From: Gemmatimonadaceae bacterium | GTDB taxonomy: Bacteria > Gemmatimonadota > Gemmatimonadetes > Gemmatimonadales > Gemmatimonadaceae | Assembly (NCBI GenBank): GCA_013697785.1 | Contig: JACCWE010000096.1 | Span: forward strand, 1-42,876 | Reading direction: 5' to 3' | DNA length: 42,876 nt | Part shown: piece by piece, positions 35,563 through 41,001 of the stretch | Layout: every line of letters begins with the position of its first letter | How positions within the stretch are numbered: position 1 is the stretch's first letter | Translations under genes and position numbers: made by a program | Notes under the pieces: generated by a model | Database searches by the model: none | What the model was told of the DNA's origin: nothing | Seen by the model: the letters and a program-made list of their open reading frames with translations, nothing else

Positions 35563-36591
35563 GTGAGCGTCAAGCGCTGGATCTTCGCGATCGGCTCCTT
35601 CGTTGTGGCGATCGGCGTGTCGCTCTACATCGTGATCAAATCGTGGCCGAAGGAGCACGCCGCGGTCTCGATGGACCTCGGGCCGCACGTCGTGCTTCTC
35701 GGCATCGCCGTCGCCGAGCTCCTCGCGCGCGGCGCGAAGGTATGGCTCAGCGCGATCGCCATGCGCATCCCGATGTCCTACCGCCTCGCCGTGCGCGCGA
35801 GCGCGGGCGGCGATTTCGGCGCGGCAATCACGCCGAACAAGTCGGGGGCCGAGCCGGCGCGCTATCTCATCATGACGGAAGCGGGGATGCATGCCGCGCA
35901 GATCCTACTCGTGATCTACGCGGAGCTCTTCCTCGAGATGATTTCGCTCGCGCTCGTGGCGATCGGACTGTTCGTCGTCTTCCACAACGCCGGGTCGACG
36001 TTGGTCGGGGTCGTCGGCGCAGTCGGCCTCTACGCGGTCTTCGTGCTCGGCACCGGCGCGCTCGGCTTCTTCCTCTCGAAGAAGTACGGCACCACCGGGC
36101 CCGCCCCCGGGTGGGCGCGGCGCTTCAAGCTGCACGGCACGCGATGGAAGAAGGTACAACACGCGCTCGCGACCCTGCGCACCGCGATCACCGGTATCCG
36201 CCACATGCGCATCGGCATGACCGCGCTCGCATTGCTGGCTTCGGTGCTCCACATCTGCCTCCGCATCGCGATCCTTCCCGCGATCGTCTATTCGCTCGGC
36301 GAGACGCACGTGCCGCTCGCGCCGCTCGTGCTGTGGCCCGTCGCGCTGATGTGGGGGAGCGCGGTCTCTCCGCTGCCAGGTGGCGGCGGCGCGGTGGAGG
36401 TCGGCTTTCGCGCCGCACTGGGCAACGCGATCCCCGCGCGAATATTCGGCGCGGCGCTCGTCTGGTGGAGGTTCTACACCTTCTATCTCTTCATTCTGCT
36501 CGGCGCGCTCGCGGCGGGGAACACGGTTCTAAAAGCACTCCGCGATGACGAGCACGAGAACGACGAGGAAGCCGAGCCGGCTACGGCGTAG
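35563..36591 (+). CDS. Lysylphosphatidylglycerol synthase-like (UPF0104) membrane protein
   Basis: 342 residues, GTG start with GAGG 6 nt upstream. About seven or eight hydrophobic spans. Family motifs: ASAGGDFGAAITPNKSGAEP (the usual NxxTPxxxG region of these flippase-like proteins) and PLPGGGGAVEVGF near the C-terminus. This is the membrane domain of MprF-type proteins without the aminoacyl-transferase domain; stand-alone members are thought to move lipids. An acidic tail follows. The last 11 nt overlap the end of the convergent anti-sigma gene. Confidence 0.88.
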   Translation: MSVKRWIFAIGSFVVAIGVSLYIVIKSWPKEHAAVSMDLGPHVVLLGIAVAELLARGAKVWLSAIAMRIPMSYRLAVRASAGGDFGAAITPNKSGAEPARYLIMTEAGMHAAQILLVIYAELFLEMISLALVAIGLFVVFHNAGSTLVGVVGAVGLYAVFVLGTGALGFFLSKKYGTTGPAPGWARRFKLHGTRWKKVQHALATLRTAITGIRHMRIGMTALALLASVLHICLRIAILPAIVYSLGETHVPLAPLVLWPVALMWGSAVSPLPGGGGAVEVGFRAALGNAIPARIFGAALVWWRFYTFYLFILLGALAAGNTVLKALRDDEHENDEEAEPATA

Positions 36592-37651
36592 CGCGATCCA
36601 GCGCCGCCTTCAGCTGCGACAACAAATCGAGCGACACACGGCCGCGCAGCGTTCGCATGCGGCCCTTCGAGTCCGTCCACTCGACGATGTTCATCTTCGC
36701 ATCGCGCTTGTCGGATTGATCTTCGATGGCCGAGACGAGGGGCTCGGTGATGGTGTGCCGCGTGGTGTCCGGCTTGAGCCGATCGATGAAGGCGACGTAG
36801 ACCTCGTCCACCTGATAGAGCGATATCTCCACCGGCTCGCCATTCTCGGCGGACGTCGCGCGCGTCGCGAGCGTCGCGACGACGCCGTTGGAGAGGGTGA
36901 TCACCGGACGTTTCACGCTCGACATCGACGTGAGGCCGCGGACGCGAATCGGCTCTGCGTTCGGAGGCGCATCCTTCGGCGCATCCGCAGACGCGATCGC
37001 GACGCCGAGCTTCTCTGCGGGAGAAATAGTTCCGGCCCCGGTGATGACGACTCCATTGAGCCTCGCGCGCTGCGAGGCGGCAGTGTCTTCGAGCCGTGCT
37101 CGCGGGGACGCGGGTGCGGGAGCCTGCGCCTGAGCGACCATCGCATCCGCGGCTTGCGCGCTCGGCGCTTTTGCTCGCACGGGCGCCGGCGCATTCGCCG
37201 CTTTCTCGCTCGGCGCCGGAGCCTTCGCGACGACGGGTGCACTCGCCCCTGCGGATGCCGCGCTCCGCGCATCCGCGCGCTCCTCTTTCAACTCATCGCT
37301 CACCGCGACCGTCGAGACTACGCTCTCGCGCTTCGGCCGAATTGCGATCACCGTCACCGTGCTGAGCACGAGCACCGCAGCCGCCGCCATCCAGGTTCGC
37401 GAGAGCGTGAACCGCCTCGGCGCGCGCGTCTTCGCGATCGAGCTCGGCGTCGAAGCTGGCAGCACTCCGCCTGGCACCGCATCGAGCGCCAACAGGATGC
37501 GCGATGCGCCCGCGACGAATCCCCGCGCCTCCGCTACCGCCGCCCTGCACTCATCACACGTGCCCACGTGCGCCTCCGCCGCCGCCATTTCCGCTGGGGG
37601 CAGCTCGCCATCGAGCCACGCGTGAATCGTCCCTTCGTCAAGATGCTGCAT
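36581..37651 (-). CDS. Membrane-spanning zinc-finger anti-sigma factor
   Basis: 356 residues. The N-terminal anti-sigma zinc finger is present: HVGTCDECRAAV (H28, C32, C35). One membrane span lies at about 87-105 (WMAAAAVLVLSTVTVIAI). An Ala/Pro-rich periplasmic linker of about 70 residues leads to a C-terminal domain. That domain contains GVVITGAGTISPAEK (200-214) and PIRVRG; similar short motifs occur in the VIT/VWA protein upstream. The gene overlaps the sigma gene by 14 nt with a strong ribosome-binding site (GGAGGGAAGG) inside it. It should hold the adjacent ECF sigma factor at the membrane until an envelope signal releases it. Confidence 0.9.
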   Translation of the reverse strand: MQHLDEGTIHAWLDGELPPAEMAAAEAHVGTCDECRAAVAEARGFVAGASRILLALDAVPGGVLPASTPSSIAKTRAPRRFTLSRTWMAAAAVLVLSTVTVIAIRPKRESVVSTVAVSDELKEERADARSAASAGASAPVVAKAPAPSEKAANAPAPVRAKAPSAQAADAMVAQAQAPAPASPRARLEDTAASQRARLNGVVITGAGTISPAEKLGVAIASADAPKDAPPNAEPIRVRGLTSMSSVKRPVITLSNGVVATLATRATSAENGEPVEISLYQVDEVYVAFIDRLKPDTTRHTITEPLVSAIEDQSDKRDAKMNIVEWTDSKGRMRTLRGRVSLDLLSQLKAALDRATP

Positions 37652-38156
37652 TGCCTTCCCTCCTCTGCTGCTCCTGCTGCAACCGCTCGTACTGCTCCAC
37701 GAGCCGTCGCCGCGCCCGGGACAGCGTGGTCCCGATCGAACCCACCGACATCCCGAGCGCCGACGCGATCTCCGAATAATCCAGCCCTTCCTCCTTCATC
37801 AACAGCGCGAGCCTGTCACGCTCGGCGAGCCCATCCACCGCGGCCCGCGCCATTGCCGCATCCTGCGCGCGCTCGATCGTCGTCTCCTCGGGCTCGACCA
37901 CGCGCTCCTTCTCCTCTTCGAACAGCATCGTCAGATGCCTGCGTCTCCGTGAATCCTTTCTCGCCTCGTCGCGCACGAGGTTATTCGCAACCGTGAACAG
38001 CCACGCACGCTCGTTGGTCATCGTCTCCTGCCGCAATGCGCGCACGAACGTCTCCTGCGCGACCTCTTCCGCCCAGTCGCGGTCCCCGAGCCTGCGCGTC
38101 AGATACCGCACGAGCATCTCGTTGTAAGCACGGAAGAGGCGGTCGACGTCGTGCAC
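37638..38156 (-). CDS. ECF-type RNA polymerase sigma factor
   Basis: 172 residues from GTG 38156; an ATG at 38195 would add 13 residues and overlap the upstream gene by 35 nt. Region 2: RLFRAYNEMLVRYLTRRLGD, then DWAEEVAQETFVRAL. Region 4: LAERDRLALLMKEEGLDYSE followed by IASALGMSVGSIGTTLSRAR. An acidic inter-domain linker (EEEKERVVEPEETT) separates them. It begins 4 nt after the VIT/VWA stop and overlaps its anti-sigma gene, so the three are likely an operon. It probably directs RNA polymerase to its own envelope regulon. Confidence 0.93.
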   Translation of the reverse strand: MHDVDRLFRAYNEMLVRYLTRRLGDRDWAEEVAQETFVRALRQETMTNERAWLFTVANNLVRDEARKDSRRRRHLTMLFEEEKERVVEPEETTIERAQDAAMARAAVDGLAERDRLALLMKEEGLDYSEIASALGMSVGSIGTTLSRARRRLVEQYERLQQEQQRREGNAAS

Positions 38157-38160
38157 GCTG

Positions 38161-40491
38161 TTACCACTGCTCCTTGAGTGAGCGCAGCTCGGCATCGCCG
38201 AGCTGCTCGGCGCCGGCGCTGGTGATCTCGATCGCGACGTTCCTGCCAGCCACGATCACCTTCTCTCCCACCGCGAACGACGCGCGCAGCTCCGGTATCG
38301 CATCGAGCACCTTGAAGTATGCGGGTGAGAACGCCTTGATCTTCACCACCTTCATCCCGTCCTTGAAGGCGACGTCAGTCCACTTCTCATCGCGAAGCGT
38401 GAAGAGATGATTGTCGGCTCGACGTGGCACCTCGCGCTTTGCCTCGTTCATCGCGGCGCCGGGCTTTTCGGAAGACGACGTCGTGCCCGCCCCGGTGACC
38501 ACCACACCGCTCATCATCAACTTGTCCATGGCGCCCACGGACTGCGCGTCGCGCTGCGCCGTCGACTTTCTCGCCGCTTCGAAGCTCTTGTCCTTTGGCG
38601 CTTCCGCCGGAATGGGCGCCGGCATCTGCGCGTTCTGCGGCATCGCGATCATCCCTCGAATGCGAATCGGCGTTGCGACCTGCTGCGGCTCCTGCACGAG
38701 ATATGACGTGAGCTCCGTCGGAATGCCATAGCGCTCGCCGAGCGTGCGCAGCTCGTCGTCGACCTCTGGCGATGCGCCGTTCTGCCTGCGCGCGGCGCTC
38801 AGCCATCCGATTCTGCGCGTCGCCCACAGCCTGGGCACGAACGCATTGTCGCGATCGTGATCGGGGAAGTCGACGTTGCTCTCCCAGTGCACCGGGCCGG
38901 TCGCGCTCCGCCCGTCGAAGCTGAGGCGCGCCGAGCCGCTGCCGGTATAGCGCGTGAGCAGCACGAGATCCTGCCCCGCGAACAGATCGACGGGGCCGTC
39001 GGGGAGCGAGTGGACGAGGTGCGCGCAGCGGAAGTAGCCCTTGCACTGGACGCTAACGCGCAGGTCGCTCGCAATCGGACTCGTGAGCCGCGATGCGACC
39101 ACACCAACCGCGCGCTCGACATCCTCGTCGGGGCGCACGAACTGCGCCGTGCCATGCCCCTCGAGCGCGAGCTGCTCGATGAGCTGCGCATTCACGTCGG
39201 CGCCGAGCCCGAAGGTGAAGACGCGCTGTGATCCGCGGAGTCGCGCGGCGTGCGCCGCGATGGCGGCGGGCTCGCGCTCACCGACCGTGGGCTCCCCGTC
39301 GGTGACGAACAGCACGAGCGACATCCGCGACAGTACCTGGTGGCTGTGCGCTTCCGCGTACTCGTCGTCATCGCCTTCCGGATATCGCGGCTGCGACAGC
39401 GCGCGGTCGAGCGCACCATCGATGTTCGTACCTCCGTTGGCCTGGAGCTGGTCGAGATATTTGCGCGCCGCGTCGAGATTGGCCGGCGTCGCGTCGACGA
39501 AGTCATCGCGGAAGGTGCGGACATCGCTCGAGAAGTCGATCATCCGGAAGCGATCGTTGCGCGTGAGAGTGCCGAGCAGCTGCCGTCCGGCGGCGCGCGC
39601 CTGCTCCATCTTGCGGCCGCTCATCGAGCCGGACACATCGAGCACGAAGGTGATGTCGCGCGGCACCGTCGCCGCCTGGGCCGACGGCGGTGTCAGCGTG
39701 ATGAGCGCGAAGCCATCCTGCGATCCATCCGCATTCGCCAGCATCGATATCGACGCGCGATCGTTCCTCGGCGCCGGAATCAGAATCGTCACCGCGGCAC
39801 CTTCGCCGCCGACGTCGATCGTGCACTCGCTGCCGCTCGAGTGCGACTGCAGCTCCTGCGTCGGAGAATACGCGTTGCAGCGCCCCGACCGTGGATAGCG
39901 CAGCGAGAACGACGACTCACGTGTGTCGTGCGAGCCACCGGCGGTGAACGTGTGCCCGCTCCCGCGCTGATAATCGACGCGAATGGCATCGCCCTCGCGC
40001 GGCGCGATGACCTGGAAGCGCAGCACGACGCGCTTCTCTTCGCCGGGATTGATCGGGAAGATGCGCGCGCGCAGGAGTCCGTAGCCCATCCACTCGACGA
40101 GCGCGGGATCACGCTGGCGTCGCACGATCTCTTCGTATGTGGATCGCGCGCGTCCGGCGTCCATGATCTCGCCGCTCACGAGCTGTCCGTTGATCGAGAG
40201 CTGCAGCTCCTGGAAAGCGGCGCCGGCGGGGAGCGGATACATGTAGTCCGCCTCCTGCACGGTGCCCCCGCGGTTGCGGAAGGTCTCTTCCACTTCGTAG
40301 CGGAGCACATGATCGGCGAGCGTCGCGCGGACGTTGCTCGACGTGCGCTCGAGCACGACGGGGCGCGGCGCGAGGCACTTGTCGAAGCACACGGGCGGGG
40401 GCACGTCAGGGTGACGCGGGATGATCCATCCCTGAGCCAACAGGGAGGCGGGGAGGGCGAGGTTGAGCAGAAACAGGGCTTGGGCGCGCAT
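38161..40491 (-). CDS. Exported VIT and VWA domain protein
   Basis: 776 residues from ATG 40491, with AGGAGA 8 nt upstream. The signal peptide (RAQALFLLNLALPASLLAQ) is followed by a VIT domain (about 45-165; HVLRYEVEETFRNRGGTVQE, YMYPLPAGAAF) and a VWA domain with an intact MIDAS: DVSGSMS (285-291), then VTDGEPTVGE. The long C-terminal part holds PIRIRG, then GVVVTGAGTTSSSEK from about 662, and a beta-rich end. This layout recalls inter-alpha-trypsin-inhibitor-like bacterial proteins of unknown role. It is coupled to the sigma/anti-sigma pair, so it may be a sensor or target of the same envelope response. Confidence 0.92.
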   Translation of the reverse strand: MRAQALFLLNLALPASLLAQGWIIPRHPDVPPPVCFDKCLAPRPVVLERTSSNVRATLADHVLRYEVEETFRNRGGTVQEADYMYPLPAGAAFQELQLSINGQLVSGEIMDAGRARSTYEEIVRRQRDPALVEWMGYGLLRARIFPINPGEEKRVVLRFQVIAPREGDAIRVDYQRGSGHTFTAGGSHDTRESSFSLRYPRSGRCNAYSPTQELQSHSSGSECTIDVGGEGAAVTILIPAPRNDRASISMLANADGSQDGFALITLTPPSAQAATVPRDITFVLDVSGSMSGRKMEQARAAGRQLLGTLTRNDRFRMIDFSSDVRTFRDDFVDATPANLDAARKYLDQLQANGGTNIDGALDRALSQPRYPEGDDDEYAEAHSHQVLSRMSLVLFVTDGEPTVGEREPAAIAAHAARLRGSQRVFTFGLGADVNAQLIEQLALEGHGTAQFVRPDEDVERAVGVVASRLTSPIASDLRVSVQCKGYFRCAHLVHSLPDGPVDLFAGQDLVLLTRYTGSGSARLSFDGRSATGPVHWESNVDFPDHDRDNAFVPRLWATRRIGWLSAARRQNGASPEVDDELRTLGERYGIPTELTSYLVQEPQQVATPIRIRGMIAMPQNAQMPAPIPAEAPKDKSFEAARKSTAQRDAQSVGAMDKLMMSGVVVTGAGTTSSSEKPGAAMNEAKREVPRRADNHLFTLRDEKWTDVAFKDGMKVVKIKAFSPAYFKVLDAIPELRASFAVGEKVIVAGRNVAIEITSAGAEQLGDAELRSLKEQW

Positions 40492-40573
40492 GAGTGGTCT
40501 CCTCTGGGTCGAGGATGAGACGCCGCCCGCCGCCTGACTTGCACACTCGTCGTTAGAGCTGCGAAACGCGCTC

Positions 40574-40602
40574 TTGACTGCCAATCAGATATTTATTACC
40601 AT
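40574..40602 (+). promoter_or_regulatory. Sigma70-type promoter for the ArsR gene, possibly leaderless
   Basis: TTGACT (40574-40579) and TACCAT (40597-40602) are separated by 17 nt. Transcription would start near 40609, the A of the ATG. No ribosome-binding site is visible before that ATG, which fits a leaderless mRNA. Confidence 0.45.
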
Positions 40603-40604
40603 TC

Positions 40605-40636
40605 GGTTATGGAACTATATGGTTATGGAACGATAA
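40605..40636 (+). repeat. 16-bp tandem duplication over the ArsR start codon
   Basis: GGTTATGGAACTATAT (40605-40620) is followed directly by GGTTATGGAACGATAA (40621-40636), 14 of 16 identical. Copy 1 contains the start codon. The ATG of copy 2 (40625) is out of frame and opens only ATG GAA CGA TAA. Confidence 0.75.
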
Positions 40637-41001
40637 TCCCCGCGCGCCTCGACGCCACCTTCTCCGCCCTCGCCGATCCCACGCGTCGCGCCATCCTCGC
40701 GCGGCTCGCGTCCGGCGACGCATCGGTGGCCGAGCTCGCGAAGCCGTTCGCCATGAGCCAGCCAGCGATCTCGAAGCACCTCAAAGTGCTCGAGCGCGCC
40801 GGGCTCATCTCGCATTCACTCGACGCCCAGCGCCGCCCCCGCAGGCTCGAGGCGATGCCGCTGGCCGAGGCGACGGAGTGGCTCGAGCGCTATCGCGAGT
40901 TCTGGGAGAAATCCTTCCTCCGCCTGGACGACCTGCTCGAAGAGCTCAAGGCGAAGGAGAAAAAGTCCGCTCGCCCTAAGAAACGAGGAAATAGGAAATG
41001 A
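40609..41001 (+). CDS. ArsR-family transcriptional regulator
   Basis: 130 residues. A winged helix-turn-helix: LDATFSALADPTRRAILARL, then SVAELAKPFAMSQPAISKHL followed by KVLERAGLI. The metal-binding ELCV motif of ArsR/SmtB sensors is missing, as in the subgroup paired with SRPBCC (AHSA1-like) proteins. The C-terminus is Lys-rich (EELKAKEKKSARPKKRG). It heads a plus-strand trio and probably represses it. The start codon lies in a duplicated 16-bp unit. Confidence 0.92.
   Translation: MELYGYGTIIPARLDATFSALADPTRRAILARLASGDASVAELAKPFAMSQPAISKHLKVLERAGLISHSLDAQRRPRRLEAMPLAEATEWLERYREFWEKSFLRLDDLLEELKAKEKKSARPKKRGNRK

Follow-up and report, generated by a model that had tools for sequence, protein, structure and literature searches.

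A three-gene operon on the minus strand of a 42,876-nt stretch of Gemmatimonadaceae bacterium DNA (assembly GCA_013697785.1, contig JACCWE010000096.1; hereafter the window) encodes a protein with a von Willebrand factor A (VWA) domain, an extracytoplasmic function (ECF) sigma factor and a zf-HC2 anti-sigma factor (ASF). The ASF and the VWA protein share a short stretch, LNGVVITGAGTISPAEKLG in the former and MSGVVVTGAGTTSSSEK in the latter, accompanied by PIR(V/I)RG in both, and the comparisons described below indicate that this stretch corresponds to the TonB box and first plug residues of SusC-type receptors by homology and not by loose likeness. TonB acts on outer-membrane receptors. The reading slightly favoured here is that the two proteins carry receptor-derived TonB-binding motifs, through which TonB could take hold of the ASF, with the VWA protein as a competitor for TonB.

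The near-identical stretch and the PIR(V/I)RG motifs in opposite order, both reported in an initial annotation made from the letters alone, were recovered, the core reading VVITGAGT in the ASF (37028-37051, minus strand) and VVVTGAGT in the VWA protein (38482-38505, minus strand). The TonB box and plug start of the ASF, LNGVVITGAGTISPAEKLGVA, span 36998-37060 (minus strand) and are followed by PIRVRG, which begins at 36952, giving the order ARLNGVVITGAGTISPAEKLGVAIAS, then PIRVRGLTSMSSVKRP; the segment PIRVRGLTSMSSVKRPVITL (36893-36952, minus strand) aligns with the plug hallmark IRIRG..S.S....P. In the VWA protein PIRIRG, which resembles the plug hallmark IRIRG, comes first (38653-38670, minus strand, read from 38670), followed by LMMSGVVVTGAGTTSSSEKPG, which is the reverse of the receptor order, and the TonB-box-like motif MSGVVVTGAGTTSSSEK (38464-38514, minus strand) lies in a linker predicted to be disordered. 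The two stretches are 71% identical at the DNA level over 59 nt and constitute the first-listed direct repeat of 36500-40700. A degenerate DNA search of the 3.8-Mb genome (169 contigs) for VV(V/I/M)TGAGT returned only these two places, neither of them in a receptor, with none for the reversed control. The looser Lxx(V/I/M)V(V/I/M)TG, which misses the VWA copy (M in place of L) and receptor L052 (L before VITG), occurs at seven places: four Plug-matched receptors, the ASF, one stretch that appears transmembrane-like by eye and one 48-aa frame.

The resemblance to the plug start of SusC/RagA-type receptors, likewise suggested in the initial annotation, proved to be homology on both profile and pairwise matches, and the element corresponds to the TonB box. 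A profile of receptor plug starts, built from those receptor loci (14 of 49) in which a pattern demanding both box and IRG was matched, scored 19.4 bits on the window ASF in two colinear stretches (11.0 and 7.4 bits), with 9.6 bits for the best shuffled sequence; the PIRVRGLTSMSSVKRPVITL region occupies profile positions 82-102 and is weak alone, at 7.4 bits. In a single comparison with receptor L052 of the same genome, the box, EKLG and IRxRG of the window ASF were colinear, with a gap of ~27 residues (E 7e-6). This genome contains 19 Plug (PF07715) matches, 0/19 of them on the window contig, and two TonB_C matches above cut-off; several of its receptors read LGEIVVTGVGLTSSTEKLG, LQQLVITGEGTITTNEKLGV or LSEVVVTGYGT immediately ahead of the plug, and a receptor from the same genus (L221) reads VVVTGAGTTSTVEKLG, close to the VWA motif. 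Behind its box the window ASF retains only the plug start and a short plug piece, with no plug domain, and as no Plug or receptor match was found in either the window ASF or the VWA protein at E values up to 1, neither is a TonB-dependent receptor.

According to the study of Bt1763 from Bacteroides thetaiotaomicron (PMC7782687), the TonB box of this SusC/RagA-type receptor is 82-DEVVVTG-88, lies behind a PF13715 domain and shows no order in the solution structure; removing it or replacing it with alanines throughout produces a growth defect like that caused by loss of the SusD partner. The window ASF likewise has a short hydrophobic DEVVVTG-like box, identified by the profile and pairwise matches, in a segment predicted to be disordered, with an EKLG-like plug start behind it, and some orthologous ASFs carry a whole PF13715 domain in the same order; the difference is that here the module resides on ASF and VWA proteins that lack a Plug match. 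The ASF of the same-genus genome G001 (L005) has PF13715 directly ahead of the box and shows 52% identity with receptor L047 of the window genome across 117 aa (E 3e-31). PF13715 was above cut-off in five of the eight ASFs scanned (L005, together with L007, L012, L019 and L034, each from a further genus), none of the eight gave a Plug match, and the Pfam scan did not find PF13715 in the window ASF.

The distribution of the box was then followed among relatives, the named ones being Gemmatimonadetes/Gemmatimonadaceae metagenome-assembled genomes in which ASF and sigma factor adjoin, mostly with a VWA gene in front. A VWA match at E <= 1e-60 was present in 90 of the 179 genomes of the family, of which 81 were read (left out: G069, G088, G126, G167, G185, G188, G193, G198 and G200). 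The first set comprised 90 loci, 87 from family f1 and three from family f2 (L025, L026 and L028), and yielded 78 ASFs and 76 VWA linkers, with both available at 65 loci, after exclusion of too-short ASFs and unrecognisable linkers; four linkers entered via a second anchor pattern, and L037, a duplicate of L081, was excluded from pattern counts and is still among the 73 linkers of the matrix count given below. A VIT-VWA match was not found at seven loci (L007, L012, L018, L019, L027, L028 and L031), some of them perhaps because the stretch was short.

A strict box pattern was found in 20/78 ASFs and 18/76 VWA linkers of the first set, against 1.56 and 0.24 expected from shuffled sequences, and a receptor-derived matrix, which drew on 16 of the 19 Plug loci in the window genome and left out L051, L058 and L059, where no box was read, gave p <= 0.01 in 14/78 ASFs and 17/73 linkers. 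The boxes co-occur: the 65 loci divide into 14 with both, 5 with the ASF box only, 2 with the VWA box only and 44 with neither (p 1.9e-8; stratified by genus, p 0.0011), and a relaxed pattern divides them 17, 4, 1 and 43 in the same order. They also match within genomes, those at the 14 two-box loci sharing 8.9 of 18 residues with their same-genome partner and 6.2 with boxes of other genomes (p 5e-5), as exemplified by LQQIVVTGEG twice in G003 and LE(A/S)VVTTGAA twice in G030. The pattern, as settled on the first set, was carried over unaltered to family f2, where 61 of 102 genomes matched; G036 was already covered, G214 and G268 were left out, and the set consists of the other 58 and L025. 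Here the box was present in 9/55 ASFs and 13/53 linkers (0.63 and 0.05 expected), co-occurred at 7 loci, the ASF alone having it at 1, the VWA protein alone at 5 and neither protein at 36 (p 6.6e-5), and matched within genomes at 9.0 vs 7.5 of 18 residues (7 loci, p 0.00045); the stratified and matching tests of this family omit L026, which duplicates L262, and place L025 under an f1 label. On sequence grounds, the shared binding partner, or competition for it, put forward in the initial annotation would fit this co-occurrence and within-genome matching.

The PIR(V/I)RG half of the shared observation is weaker. The pattern (V/I/F)(R/Q)(V/I)RG occurs in 1/78 ASFs and 2/76 VWA linkers (0.22 and 0.05 expected from shuffles), one of each being that of the window, and the PIRVRGLTSMSSVKRPVITL/IRVRG part of the ASF lies within an insertion that the ASFs of three genomes in the same genus lack. 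As a separate observation, the VWA linker of L122 (G186, another genus) has IQIRG directly before LDQVVVTGAGT, so that both plug hallmarks are present as in the window VWA protein.

The boxes lie in regions with a predicted local distance difference test (pLDDT) score below 50 between folded parts, residues 179-229 of the ASF and 592-686 of the VWA protein, in models of moderate overall confidence (mean pLDDT 64 and 66, respectively). Pairwise identity among four same-genus ASFs was 50% for the box, 27% for the tether and 15% for the stretch behind the box, the last value being lowered by the window insertion as gaps were scored as differences. Disorder without conservation in orthologs had been named in the initial annotation as a finding that would count against its proposal, and this holds by half: the boxes are predicted to be disordered, as TonB boxes are, and are absent from most orthologous loci, whereas within the genus the box is more strongly conserved than the tether, and elsewhere its frequency far exceeds shuffle expectation. 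In the linker of the VWA protein the box follows a conserved FEAAR segment in the genus of the window and precedes FEAAR in several other genera, and in the ASF it is either ahead of the C-terminal domain or in a loop of that domain, depending on the genus; this variable position is better accounted for if a short motif was gained repeatedly, or moved, than if a frozen segment was inherited. Identical residues of paired boxes use the same codon in 47/122 cases, with 50.2 expected from codon use, and as this agreement is at chance level the matching of the boxes does not reflect fresh DNA copying. Recent copying between the ASF and VWA genes was rejected on these synonymous codons, which leave room for ancient copying followed by selection.

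A predicted autoregulated ECF promoter, TGTGCAAG-N15-CGTC (40519-40545, minus strand), lies 27 nt ahead of the ATG of the VWA gene. The pattern, first seen by eye, is conserved upstream of the VWA gene in 12/12 cases (the window and 11 relatives), and its single exact match in the window genome is the one at the VWA gene. The classic ECF promoter pattern GGAA(C/T)... was tried and rejected, with one match in the 12 upstream regions, inside a coding start. In 31 genomes TGTGCAAG-N15-CGTC gave 27 exact matches, distributed over 20 of the 31 genomes (reversed control 7), of which 14 precede VWA genes as judged by BLAST (L189, L191-L193, L196, L199, L204-L207, L210-L212 and L215); other first genes behind the matches include two sigma-like frames recognised by eye (L190 and L202). 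A sigma regulon containing receptors was rejected, there being no recognised receptor behind the promoter-like matches, 6/27 of which were left unscanned (L200, L201, L203, L208, L209 and L213). This distribution points to an envelope system under its own control and not to a regulon for nutrient uptake. Exact copies in relatives were also seen ahead of DUF4349 (L194 and L197) and SIMPL (L198 and L214) genes identified by Pfam, and the first gene at L195 looks by eye like the start of L194 and is likely a DUF4349 start.

In the proposed mechanism, the box would have come from TonB-dependent receptors and would persist as a short linear motif in the disordered periplasmic tether of the ASF and the disordered linker of the VWA protein. 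According to PMC9249621 and PMC11637429, a TonB box binds by adding a strand to the C-terminal sheet of TonB, and the TonB C-terminal domain would grip the ASF box in the same manner as a receptor's; through its pull or its occupancy, the energised Ton complex would then change how proteases reach the ASF, and with this the release of the sigma factor. The VWA protein, whose gene is behind the predicted own promoter of the sigma factor, would bring a matching box and compete for TonB, closing a feedback. Sharing of TonB would be the most economical function for a retained, matched box in two periplasmic proteins, and the Ton motor may thus act directly on gene regulation. In its full form, the proposal that the Ton complex, powered by the proton motive force, acts on the ASF itself via a receptor-derived box, that sigma activity reads Ton energy or TonB occupancy and that an exported VWA protein under the same sigma factor competes with a co-evolving box copy is a tentative one. 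If true, the Ton motor would be a direct input to transcription, exerted via an inner-membrane regulator and an operon partner with matched receptor-derived boxes.

Several points weigh against the TonB proposal. Binding by TonB, force or proteolysis and competition are steps that we infer. Within the genus, conservation of the box (50%) is similar to, rather than higher than, that of the ASF C-terminal domain (46%), and the box is missing from both proteins at 44/65 first-set and 36/49 f2 loci, so that the system works without it at most two-protein loci. The co-occurrence in family f2 was not significant when stratified by genus (p 0.13), G036 and G044 belong to both sets, the pattern and segment choices of the first set were made after seeing the data, and the shuffles preserve composition and not local hydrophobic runs. 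A link to nutrient uptake likewise lacks support, since elsewhere the promoter-like matches stand ahead of SIMPL and DUF4349 genes, with no gene among them recognised as a receptor's.

The main rival is a shared partner other than TonB, in which case the matched boxes would bind a common non-TonB protein or, through strand pairing, one another or the domains of the partner protein; the VWA protein would then report directly to the ASF. Co-occurrence and within-genome matching need a common partner and do not name TonB, and according to PMC9249621 the signaling domain of FpvA itself binds the TonB box when ligand is absent. We nevertheless regard this rival as unlikely, given that motif and flank are homologous to receptor plug starts and that Lxx(V/I/M)V(V/I/M)TG is otherwise confined to receptors in the window genome, bar the transmembrane-like stretch and the short frame. 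A second alternative, that a receptor N-terminus was fused to the ASF in the distant past, that pieces were copied to the neighbouring gene and that the remnants are neutral debris without a role in disordered linkers, is more doubtful still. The co-occurrence and enrichment, the better conservation of the box than of the tether (four sequences), its varying position among genera in both proteins and the randomisation of synonymous sites while residues match all speak against debris, for which the patchy distribution, the whole PF13715 modules in five of eight scanned ASFs, the disordered location and the 71% DNA identity over 59 nt can be cited. Chance or low-complexity likeness of hydrophobic-glycine stretches, in whose favour the evident abundance of A, V, G, T and P in the linkers can be cited, was rejected on the shuffle controls in both sets and is very improbable.

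The TonB-box reading places the operon beside known systems with which it is not identical. Cell-surface signaling, as described in PMC11637429 and PMC9249621, employs an STN-bearing transducer, an ASF and an ECF sigma factor, and shares with the window the ECF sigma factor, a membrane ASF and possible TonB involvement; here the box would be on the ASF itself, which is of the zf-HC2 type without FecR or STN, and the window contig has no Plug match. Neither FecR nor STN was matched in the Pfam scan of the window proteins, and the neighbouring STN receptor and FecR-domain ASF that define FecIRA-type signaling are thus lacking. Searches of the literature joining 'TonB box' with 'von Willebrand', or 'TonB box' with 'VWA' and 'anti-sigma', retrieved nothing in a corpus that lacks most subscription papers, and nothing on this arrangement was found among the matches listed for cell-surface signaling, sigma/anti-sigma factors, SusC and TonB. 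Group B colicins are non-receptor proteins with a TonB box on which TonB acts, and are similar in this respect; they differ in being imported toxins and not regulators.

The three genes are arranged on the minus strand in the order VWA protein, ECF sigma factor, ASF, with overlapping ends. The first encodes the VIT and VWA protein (38161-40491, minus strand, 776 aa; Pfam VIT 4.3e-20, VWA_3 2.9e-19), for which the ATG at 40491 is preferred over the upstream TTG at 40584 because the predicted promoter sits between the two; the best Foldseek match of its model is inter-alpha-inhibitor heavy chain 1 (6fpy, E 3e-32). The ECF sigma factor gene (37638-38195, minus strand; Pfam Sigma70_r2 and r4_2) overlaps the VWA gene by 35 nt, and a sigma match stands beside the ASF in relatives too. 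The ASF (36581-37651, minus strand; Pfam zf-HC2 8e-9) has the features of a zf-HC2 (class I) anti-sigma factor, namely an N-terminal zinc-finger domain, an adjoining ECF sigma gene and one membrane helix, with sigma binding being putative, and in its model a disordered tether separates the single predicted helix from a folded C-terminal domain, whose fold had no Foldseek match at E <= 0.001. No relatives of the ASF were found on viral contigs. By eye, the periplasmic ends of the ASFs differ by genus, between a Y.V..G..VTL...W.D..G....L.G type and a GCY... type, as if swapped.

Boxes also recur on VWA proteins of the YfbK type (PF12450/PF12034), which resemble the window VWA protein in having the box pattern or a box-like stretch and differ in their vWF_A/YfbK_C architecture, the window protein having VIT. 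Among six such proteins of relatives the pattern was present in two (L184 and L185), a box-like stretch was seen by eye in L186, L187 and L188, and none was seen in L183. Pfam scanning, from which L183 and L186 were excluded, placed PF13715 above cut-off at the N-terminus in 4/4 and found receptor parts in none of the four; no PF12450 was found in the window genome. The recurrence of the box on VIT-type and YfbK-type VWA proteins could provide a clue to proteins whose role in the envelope is unclear. In G020 a YfbK-type vWF_A match and the matched part of an ASF with a box lie on one strand, 1.4 kb apart, and in G026 a single frame (L018:1438-3531) joins a vWF_A/VWA part to a weakly PF13715-like stretch and to a domain that resembles zf-HC2 but, at 19.7 bits, is below the cut-off of 22.2.

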